Positions 2,607 through 31,066 of a stretch of DNA of 36,634 nucleotides are shown here, piece after piece. The notes under the pieces are model-generated. The model made no database searches, was not told where the DNA came from, and worked only from the letters and a program-made list of their open reading frames with translations. Position 1 is the stretch's first letter. The number at the start of each line of letters is the position of its first letter. A program made the translations under genes and the position numbers. The stretch lies in the NCBI GenBank assembly GCA_024644805.1, contig JAHEHC010000006.1:1-36634 (forward strand), written 5' to 3'. Source of the DNA: Flavobacterium sp. Its GTDB lineage: Bacteria; Bacteroidota; Bacteroidia; Flavobacteriales; Flavobacteriaceae.

Positions 2607-3197
2607 TTAGTTCTCATCTTTGTAGTAAAGACTTAAAATTGACCTCATACTTTTCTTTCCGATTTCTATGTCATGGATCGTCGATCTCACCTTTTGAGAC
2701 AGAAAAATTATCATTGGTTGATTTACTTTTGAGATCAATTTAAAAGCGTTACCTAAGTTATTGTCCCAAATTTTATGATATCTCAGCAAATCGTCAGGAT
2801 ACACCACATTTCTAATGGTTCCTTCTTCCACTCCCTTAAAGGGGGTCTCAATGTTCAAGTAGCCATAGTCATCGGTTAGTTGTTCTCCAGGCTCTATATC
2901 TCGAATTGCAATTTCAAAATTATACGCAGAGCTAAGGCAATTTGAATTAAAACTGTGATTTACATAACGGCCATGATCCCAACACAATATATAATTGCCT
3001 TTGTTATTTCTGAACGCATAGGTTTCAACAAGTTGCTTAATATGAGAATCATAGTTGGAGAATTTATCCTTTGATATTTCTTGATCCAACGGATCCAATA
3101 CCCATGTAATTGTTCCTTTAGGAATAAATTCAGTAGCTACAACACCATACCCCATTTCTGAACTTATTAATTGAAGTTTGGTGTTAGGATGGATCAT
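2607..3197 (-). CDS. SET domain-containing protein (putative protein lysine methyltransferase)
   Basis: 196 aa; N-terminal GYGVVATEFIPKGTITWVLD, core NHSFNSNC and EQLTDDYGYL motifs of SET domains. Confidence 0.8.
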   Translation of the reverse strand: MIHPNTKLQLISSEMGYGVVATEFIPKGTITWVLDPLDQEISKDKFSNYDSHIKQLVETYAFRNNKGNYILCWDHGRYVNHSFNSNCLSSAYNFEIAIRDIEPGEQLTDDYGYLNIETPFKGVEEGTIRNVVYPDDLLRYHKIWDNNLGNAFKLISKVNQPMIIFLSQKVRSTIHDIEIGKKSMRSILSLYYKDEN

Positions 3198-26834: not shown

Positions 26835-27296
26835 ATGAAATTAGATTCCATAGACCAGCAGTTGTTGGCTTTACTTCAGAAAGATTGCAAACAGACCAAT
26901 AAGGAACTTTCAGCGAAACTTGGATTATCGGTTACAGCGGTTTATGAACGGATAAAAAAGTTGGAGCGGGAAGGTGTGATCAACAAATATGTAAGCTTAC
27001 TGAACAAGGAGAAACTGGGGTTGGGTTTCGTTGTTTTCTGTCAGATCAAACTGGTCAAACATGCCAAAGAATACCTCACCGAATTCGAACGAGAAGTGAA
27101 GCAGTTGGATGAGGTCCTGGAATGCTATCACGTCAGTGGTGATTATGATTACCTGCTGAAGGTCATTGTCAAGGACATGCAGCATTATCGTTCCTTCATG
27201 GTCACCAAACTCACTACCATCCAACATATTGGAAGTACCCATTCCTCATTTAATATCAATGAGGTGAAACACACGACCGAGATCACACTGGGATAG
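26835..27296 (+). CDS. Lrp/AsnC family transcriptional regulator
   Basis: 153 aa; LDSIDQQLLALLQKDCKQTNKELSAKLGLSVTAVYERIKKLEREGVI and ECYHVSGDYDYLLKVIVKDMQHY. Confidence 0.95.
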   Translation: MKLDSIDQQLLALLQKDCKQTNKELSAKLGLSVTAVYERIKKLEREGVINKYVSLLNKEKLGLGFVVFCQIKLVKHAKEYLTEFEREVKQLDEVLECYHVSGDYDYLLKVIVKDMQHYRSFMVTKLTTIQHIGSTHSSFNINEVKHTTEITLG

Positions 27297-27300
27297 GAGT

Positions 27301-27454
27301 GAAGCACGAAGCTAAAAGTCTGAAGTCTGAAGTTAGAAGTCTGAAGTCAGAAGTCTGAAGTCAGAAGTCTGAAGTCAGAAGTCAGAAGTGAGAAGTTGGA
27401 AGTTAGAAGTTAGAAGTGAGAAGTTAGAAGTGAGCAGTCGGAAGTCAGAAGAAT
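27301..27454 (+). repeat. Tandem array of 22 uninterrupted 7-bp units, consensus GAAGTNN
   Basis: Parsed by hand: gaagcac gaagcta aaagtct gaagtct gaagtta gaagtct gaagtca gaagtct gaagtca gaagtct gaagtca gaagtca gaagtga gaagttg gaagtta gaagtta gaagtga gaagtta gaagtga gcagtcg gaagtca gaagaat. Confidence 0.97.
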
Positions 27455-27464
27455 AATTCCGCTA

Positions 27465-27548
27465 CCAGCTTCGTTCTTCCAGCTTCGTTCTTTCAGCTTC
27501 GTTCTTTCAGCTTCGTTCTTCCAGCTTCGTTCTTCAGGTTTCAGGCTT
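27465..27548 (-). repeat. Inverted second array: 12 seven-bp units on the minus strand, mostly alternating (G/A)AAGAAC-GAAGCTG
   Basis: Plus strand shows five copies of (C/T)CAGCTTCGTTCTT; minus strand reads gaagcct gaaacct (gaagaac gaagctg)x2 (aaagaac gaagctg)x2 gaagaac gaagctg. Confidence 0.93.
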
Positions 27549-27597
27549 CCTCTTCCAACTTATCCTTATTTTCTTTTCAACCAAATCAGGATTTAAG

Positions 27598-27605
27598 TAC
27601 CTTTG
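27598..27605 (+). promoter_or_regulatory. Candidate -7 element TACCTTTG upstream of lpdA
   Basis: Matches TAnnTTTG, 24 nt before ATG 27630; no clear -33. Confidence 0.5.
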
Positions 27606-27629: not shown

Positions 27630-29033
27630 ATGAACTCATACGATGTTGCAATAATAGGATCTGGACCCGGAGGATATGTCTCAGCCATACGCTGTGCTCA
27701 GTTGGGGATGAAAACCGCTCTGATCGAAAAATACAACACTCTTGGCGGTACCTGTTTGAATGTAGGCTGTATACCAAGTAAGGCGCTGCTGGATTCTTCA
27801 CACCATTATGATGATGCCATCCGCCATTTTGAGTCTCATGGGATCGAGATCCCGGGAGAGGTCAAAGTGAATCTGGAGAAAATGATCGCACGCAAGGATT
27901 CAGTGGTCGATCAAACGACCAAGGGGATCGAATTCCTGATGAAGAAGAACAAGATCGACGTGATCCAGGGTACCGGAAGTTTTAAGGACGATCATCATAT
28001 CAAGATCAAAGGATCTGATGCTACTACTGAGATAGAAGCCAAACATATTATCATAGCCACGGGAAGTAAACCGTCTTCATTGCCTTTTATCAAGATCGAT
28101 AAGGAACGGATCATCACATCAACCGAAGCCTTAAAACTGAAAGAGATCCCAAAACATCTTCTGGTGATCGGAGGGGGAGTGATCGGTTTGGAACTCGGAC
28201 AAGTATACCGACGACTTGGAGCCGAGGTTTCGGTGATCGAATTTATGGATCGGATCATTCCGACCATGGATGCAGCACAGAGCAAAGAGCTAACCAAGGC
28301 ATTGAAAAAACAAGGAGTGAAATTCTTTACCTCTCACAAGGTCTCCAAAGTTGAACGAAAGCAAAATGATATTTCCATTATTGCTTCCAACAAAAAAGGA
28401 GAAGATGTCAGTTTTAATGGAGATTACTGCCTGGTCTCAGTCGGAAGAAGACCCTTTACCGATGGATTGGACTTAGATAAAGCCGGAGTGAAGATCAATG
28501 ATCATGGTCAGATCGAAGTGAATGATCATTTACAGACCAGTGTCGATCATATCTTCGCTATTGGAGATGTGGTAAGAGGTGCCATGCTGGCTCATAAGGC
28601 AGAGGAAGAAGGAGTGTTTGTAGCAGAGACCATAGCAGGACAAAAACCACATATCGACTACAATCTCATTCCTGGAGTGGTTTACACCTGGCCTGAGGTG
28701 GCCTCTGTAGGTAAGACCGAAGAACAACTCAAAGAAGAGGGTGTGAATTATAGTTCAGGACAATTCCCCATGCGTGCTTTAGGTCGTTCGAGAGCCAGTG
28801 GCGACATCGATGGTTTTGTAAAGATCCTTTCTGATGCTCAGACCGATGAGGTATTGGGTGTCCATATGGTTGGAGCCCGAGTGGCCGATCTGATCGCAGA
28901 AGCTGTAACGGCCATGGAGTTCAGAGCCAGTGCCGAGGATATCGCTCGAATGAGCCATGCACATCCTACCTATGCAGAGGCAGTAAAGGAAGCTGCATTA
29001 GATGCAACCGACAATCGTCCGTTACATATTTAA
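27630..29033 (+). CDS. lpdA: Dihydrolipoyl dehydrogenase
   Basis: 467 aa; IGSGPGGYVSAIRCAQLGMKTALIEKYNTLGGTCLNVGCIPSKALL, C-terminal HAHPTYAEAVKEAAL. Confidence 0.96.
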   Translation: MNSYDVAIIGSGPGGYVSAIRCAQLGMKTALIEKYNTLGGTCLNVGCIPSKALLDSSHHYDDAIRHFESHGIEIPGEVKVNLEKMIARKDSVVDQTTKGIEFLMKKNKIDVIQGTGSFKDDHHIKIKGSDATTEIEAKHIIIATGSKPSSLPFIKIDKERIITSTEALKLKEIPKHLLVIGGGVIGLELGQVYRRLGAEVSVIEFMDRIIPTMDAAQSKELTKALKKQGVKFFTSHKVSKVERKQNDISIIASNKKGEDVSFNGDYCLVSVGRRPFTDGLDLDKAGVKINDHGQIEVNDHLQTSVDHIFAIGDVVRGAMLAHKAEEEGVFVAETIAGQKPHIDYNLIPGVVYTWPEVASVGKTEEQLKEEGVNYSSGQFPMRALGRSRASGDIDGFVKILSDAQTDEVLGVHMVGARVADLIAEAVTAMEFRASAEDIARMSHAHPTYAEAVKEAALDATDNRPLHI

Positions 29034-30910: not shown

Positions 30911-30994
30911 AAAGTACAAAGCTGGAAGTAAGCAGTAAGCTGTAAGCAGAAAACAGTTAGCAGTTAGCAGTTAGCAGTTAGCAGTTAGAAGTAG
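30911..30994 (+). repeat. Second GAAGTNN-type heptad array, 12 units in phase
   Basis: aaagtac aaagctg gaagtaa gcagtaa gctgtaa gcagaaa acagtta gcagtta gcagtta gcagtta gcagtta gaagtag; begins 4 nt after the pabB stop. Confidence 0.93.
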
Positions 30995-31066
30995 GTCGCA
31001 TACTACCTGACAAATGAACTCACTAACTCAAAAACTAAAAGTCAAAAGTTTAATAAAACTATAGGA

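Follow-up and report, generated by a model that had tools for sequence, protein, structure and literature searches.

A head-to-head pair of degenerate 7-bp repeat arrays between lrp-like and lpdA-like genes in a Flavobacterium genome

The spacer between an lrp-like gene and an lpdA-like gene of this marine Flavobacterium holds two tandem arrays of 7-bp units that face each other head-to-head. We consider this element to be probably a pair of degenerate simple-sequence-repeat arrays born by replication slippage, with any effects of the hairpin that it could form arising as a side effect only. The pair lies in a window of 36,634 nt (the whole stretch of DNA that was analyzed), which is contig C14 of a 2.2-Mb draft genome in 182 contigs. 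The features referred to below are the following:

26835..27296, + strand: lrp-like gene (ORF, 153 aa)
27301..27454, + strand: array 1, 22 heptads GAAGNNN, 20 with strict GAAG (repeat reading and TRF)
27314..27385, + strand: possible self-hairpin within array 1, formed between UCUGA and UCAGA repeats (folding prediction)
27455..27464, no strand: inter-array spacer AATTCCGCTA (read from the sequence)
27465..27548, - strand: array 2, 14-bp unit GAAGAACGAAGCTG, 5 copies to 27535 and then a decayed tail
27598..27605, + strand: TACCTTTG, resembling the Bacteroidetes -7 box, presumed lpdA promoter, 3' of both arrays
27630..29033, + strand: lpdA-like (dihydrolipoyl dehydrogenase) gene (ORF, 467 aa)
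30918..31036, + strand: second, weaker composite of AGTTAGC heptads (+, about 10 copies) facing short ACT repeats (-) (TRF and composite comparison)

The two arrays and their flanking genes

The two genes are co-directional, and both arrays are intergenic and fill the spacer between them, array 1 starting 4 nt past the lrp stop and array 2 ending 82 bp before the lpdA start. We take the upstream gene to encode an Lrp/AsnC family regulator and the downstream gene to be lpdA, both names following an earlier reader's labels. Among 18 genus relatives, 15 have an ortholog of the lrp-like gene (66-79% identical) and 16 have one of the lpdA-like gene (79-82% identical). The lpdA-like gene also has close relatives across the Flavobacteriaceae, by which the organism is assigned to this family. 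A promoter of its own seems to serve lpdA past the arrays: TACCTTTG resembles the Bacteroidetes -7 box consensus TAnnTTTG and is presumed to be this promoter, and GTACCTTTG is also present 5' of lpdA in two other loci (L071 and L076).

A preliminary description of this DNA had proposed two inverted heptad arrays in this spacer, and their coordinates, their orientation and the 22 heptads of array 1 were all confirmed. The units of array 1 are mainly GAAG followed by TCA, TCT, TTA or TGA, and TRF reports a period of 7 at 27316-27451 (19.4 copies). Array 2 had been read as 12 heptads; the GAAG motifs do lie on the minus strand, but the array consists of five 14-bp units (double heptads), corresponding to about 10 in-register heptads and 8 GAAG, followed by the decayed tail to 27548 (TRF: period 14 at 27465-27535, 5.1 copies, unit CCAGCTTCGTTCTT). 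The first two units of array 1 (GAAGCACGAAGCTA) match the array 2 unit at 12 of 14 positions, as had correctly been noted; in other words, the outermost units of the two arrays match, while the inner units do not.

The tandem 7-bp unit of these arrays exceeds chance expectation. We surveyed array periods in 233 kb of the same genome (the window and 20 stretches not picked for repeats) and in 1.54 Mb from 80 Flavobacteriaceae loci, and a period of 7 was the commonest in both (3 and 30 arrays, respectively), with a period of 8 ranking second in the family loci (16 arrays). Because period 7 is the commonest in real DNA and no period-7 array occurred in shuffled sequence, a chance origin of the arrays is excluded.

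Folding of the array pair

The RNA of 27297-27600 is predicted to fold at -105.5 kcal/mol, which is better than dinucleotide shuffles (z -6.7), as the preliminary description had anticipated when it proposed a long hairpin pairing in many registers; the minus-strand RNA of the array region reaches z -4.7, and its DNA fold z -4.6. The proper control is one that preserves heptads, and against it the gain disappears: when the heptads are permuted within both arrays, the mean is -103.6 kcal/mol, native lies at z -0.5, and 32 of 100 permutations fold as well or better. A column-shuffled control gives -98.3 (native z -1.7), fixed GAAG with random triplets folds better than native (mean -124.2), and array 2 turned to the direct orientation with permuted units reaches -59. 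Between the two arms, the variable triplets match poorly (TCA, TCT, TTA and TGA versus AAC and CTG). Since heptad-permuted controls equal the native order, and GAAG with random triplets beats it, the fold energy is the product of inverting two GAAG arrays. The predicted long hairpin therefore looks like a by-product of the facing arrangement, and not like a selected structure. The original proposal is partly supported: a long hairpin does come out of the folding and inverted pairs occur at other loci (see below), so the refuting condition that it had set does not apply as phrased.

Nine other composites of the same genome fold about as well as shuffles on the plus strand (z -1.5 to +2.0). Among Christiangramia composites, one (L107) scores z 0 on the plus strand, and another (L112) is mildly better than shuffles (z -1.4 on the plus and -3.3 on the minus strand). 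A hairpin under selection thus finds no support in the heptad-preserving control or in the other composites. Array 1 on its own does fold better than its unit permutations (MFE -34.1, z about -3, 0 of 200 as good), and a similar excess was seen in one of six other arrays, on contig C56. An Rfam search of the arrays returned no family at gathering score, just spurious microRNA-like scores.

Related arrays in the genome and across the family

The same genome was surveyed through pattern searches and selected stretches, so that arrays of other motifs may be missed. GAAGNNN arrays occur on eight of its contigs with a four-unit pattern, and on a ninth (C34) with a slightly looser one. In addition, AGTNNNNN octads (consensus about AGTYTGGT) occur on twelve contigs, including C34, C43, C53, C63, C144 and C180, with 36 matches versus 0 for the reversed pattern. 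At several gene ends (L031, L032, L034, L036, L037, L200 and others), plus-strand octads lie opposite minus-strand heptads. Adjacent AGT runs are head-to-head in six cases in this genome and two in the family, versus a single tail-to-tail case, between two neighboring composites. The composite at 30918-31036 starts 12 nt past the stop of a pabB-like gene. Sister species show the same facing of octads and heptads with other units, namely AGTTGATG or AGTTTGTG against AGTAGGC-like heptads (L202, L203 and L209), and GAAG arrays are few or lacking in most genus members, versus the many GAAG/AGT arrays of this genome. It is possible, though doubtful, that the lineage has a dispersed, fast-evolving composite of AGT-type octads facing GAAG/AGT-type heptads at gene ends, sometimes around CTTCCCCGCCNCTTTGGTTCGGGCAGG, of which the layout is kept while the units turn over. 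A layout kept while units change between species would imply either that the arrays are generated by a directional mechanism or that selection acts on the layout and not on the sequence.

Pooling 107 GAAG units of this genome, the core deviates at 8 of 428 bases and the triplet at 138 of 321, a figure biased by the GAAG search pattern itself; across 31 family arrays, unit changes did not cluster in three adjacent positions (p 0.84). Unit types form blocks on contigs C44 and C56, consistent with slippage-driven changes in copy number. The array on C56 (L035, 3014-3186) has two blocks, GAAGTTG x13 and then GAAGGTG x8, and apparently lies between divergent ORFs, unlike most arrays. The GC hairpin CTTCCCCGCCNCTTTGGTTCGGGCAGG has four close copies in the genome, all within heptad/octad composites (L200 about 1466-1492, L031 about 2985-3011, L033 about 695-720 and L036 about 2910-2937).

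To place the spacer among relatives, we compared lpdA loci using tblastn. In 23 of 80 sampled Flavobacteriaceae loci, only 54-303 bp separate lpdA from an lrp immediately upstream of it, and most of these gaps have no arrays; in the remaining loci the gap is longer and may contain genes, or no lrp was detected close by. In three Christiangramia genomes, heptads lie directly 5' of the lpdA promoter block: CTGATAA (L107), CTACGAA (L109) and CTGCTAA (L112), the last of these arrays facing AGTGGAA x12, which starts at the lrp stop. CTGATAA is a rotation of TAACTGA, and L107 is the sole lrp-lpdA spacer with TAACTGA among those compared. The arrays of this spacer thus keep their position but not their sequence. 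In many genus members, the spacer is a variable slot of about 1.7-2.5 kb; in one (L072, 7452-9819), it holds two genes that by eye resemble a CPBP-type membrane protein and an FAD-dependent dehydrogenase.

Among 400 Flavobacteriaceae genomes, head-to-head GAAG pairs (GAAGNNNGAAG-N3-33-CTTCNNNCTTC) were found at 33 distinct sites in 27 genomes, counted from the listed matches with overlapping ones merged, versus 8 matches in 8 genomes for the tail-to-tail mirror pattern (p 0.0001), making head-to-head the prevailing orientation in this lineage. The outermost triplets are fully matched at 8 of 31 head-to-head sites, with repeats of one site in genome G107 counted once, versus 0.5 expected; some of these fully matched sites may be ordinary terminator hairpins, which likewise favor a purine-rich 5' arm. 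The G107 pair, 34 bp long, is identical at C24:6011, C51:39203 and C52:38695, and is perhaps a mobile or duplicated element. As for placement, 20 of 22 arrays of our genome start nearer the gene behind than the gene ahead (16 of 21 with ATG-only starts), as do 12 of 14 in family loci, although arrays sharing one spacer are not independent in these counts. Considering that octads of sister species lack this polarity (6 of 12) and that the counts shift with ORF start calling, outward placement is a tendency only.

Known repeat classes and the origin of the pair

REP and REPIN palindromes are extragenic, inverted and often found at gene ends, with REPs having a fixed length of 20-40 bp. Unlike these, the arms of the lrp-lpdA element are arrays, and no palindrome is common to the loci. 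A closer counterpart is provided by the GGGAATC heptads of Xanthomonas, which are intergenic and form paired convergent arrays, numbering 70 in one strain and 75 in another, preferably within 50 bp of a stop in the sense orientation or upstream of an ORF in the antisense orientation (Rehm et al. 2015, PMC4692102). The lrp-lpdA arrays are likewise head-to-head, and sense array 1 is within 50 bp of a stop (4 nt); the antisense partner in Xanthomonas lies within 50 bp upstream of an ORF by preference and not without exception, and array 2 is antisense and ends 82 bp before lpdA. Unlike the G-rich, quadruplex-forming Xanthomonas unit, GAAGNNN and GAAGAACGAAGCTG have no GGG tract, and the units of our genome are GAAG/AGT with a degenerate triplet, often with an octad facing a heptad. 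TAACTGA heptads are known from Beggiatoaceae, Cyanobacteria and some Bacteroidetes, where they are intergenic, long in Gramella, and mostly direct repeats 5' of start codons, with one inverted case (MacGregor 2015, PMC4679880). Our arrays share with them the intergenic heptads, and the L107 spacer carries their rotation, but the TAACTGA unit is fixed, whereas the units of array 1 are GAAGNNN (GAAGTCA and others). Among long prokaryotic simple sequence repeats, heptads, as in array 1, are the most abundant, and polymerase slippage has been proposed for them (Mrazek 2007, cited in PMC4679880, in a citing passage that makes no mention of head-to-head pairs). A literature search for the exact GAAGTCAGAAGTCAGAAG gave no match. 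The lrp-lpdA element is a known repeat class with a different unit, and the Xanthomonas inverted pairs (PMC4692102) and Bacteroidetes TAACTGA arrays (PMC4679880) weaken the earlier suggestion that it is an undescribed element.

We propose that each array grew as a short unit slipped during replication. The layout could go back to a small inverted repeat at a gene end, the arms of which later expanded separately, because agreement at 12 of 14 positions survives between the outermost units and not between the inner ones. This account is supported by period 7 being the commonest tandem class and unit-permuted arrays folding like native, by nine composites of this genome folding no better than shuffles on the plus strand, by GAAG/AGT arrays being numerous in this genome whereas GAAG arrays are scarce or absent in most genus members, by the different heptads in the same spacer of L107, L109 and L112, and by the 33 head-to-head versus 8 tail-to-tail pairs. 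Against it, plain slippage and mutation do not predict a near-invariant GAAG core with a free NNN, and array 1 self-folds better than its own unit permutations. Should transcription of lrp continue into the spacer, its RNA would form a long imperfect hairpin, which could, as a side effect only, let fewer transcripts run on into lpdA or shield the 3' end of lrp; a function of the hairpin is possible but unsupported.

The energy of -105.5 kcal/mol (z -6.7), the onset of array 1 directly past the lrp stop, the terminator-like polarity of a purine-rich 5' and a pyrimidine-rich 3' arm, and the full triplet match at 8 of 31 family pairs (0.5 expected) would also suit an RNA structure, in which a hairpin of the lrp transcript ends or stabilizes the message, insulates lpdA and is possibly an RNase III substrate. 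We regard this as unlikely: permuted heptads fold as well as native, the excess folding is absent from other composites, and ordinary terminators may account for the fully matched sites of the family. Nor was an intrinsic terminator (a GC-rich stem followed by a U-tract) predicted within 27297-27600, which leaves the earlier terminator reading of the arrays without a site. A putative DNA- or RNA-binding protein reading GAAG/AGT, with clustered sites at gene edges, would account for the free NNN beside a near-invariant core and for arrays beginning at the nearer gene edge and reading outward (20:2 in this genome, or 16:5 when only ATG starts are allowed, and 12:2 for the family). This seems quite unlikely, as units vary by species (AGTTGATG, AGTAGGC, CTGATAA and GTGGAAA), sister loci are without polarity (6:6), the core bias is partly due to the search pattern, and changes in 31 arrays show no concentration at three neighboring positions (p 0.84).

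That low-complexity sequence was misassembled is very improbable; while the assembly is a draft of 182 contigs and the array lengths are near short-read length, many separate loci with different units occur in it, and the same repeat class is found in isolate genomes such as those of Christiangramia. A structure at the DNA level, cruciform or H-DNA, is scarcely credible despite the inverted arrangement and the DNA fold z of -4.6, as the centroid fold reaches just -9.4 kcal/mol. The H-DNA that had been suggested is unlikely because the longest uninterrupted purine or pyrimidine run in the arrays is 7, and a cruciform would be poor because the arms mismatch at most NNN positions.

With slippage-born arrays as the preferred reading, the pair shows that strong fold scores across facing tandem arrays can be empty, since permuting the repeat units abolishes the signal. 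Convergent pairs of heptad arrays, reported in Xanthomonas, also occur in the Flavobacteriaceae with unrelated units, and the arrangement may therefore be general. If it is true that the layout persists through unit turnover, what drives the directional growth of repeats at gene ends would become testable.
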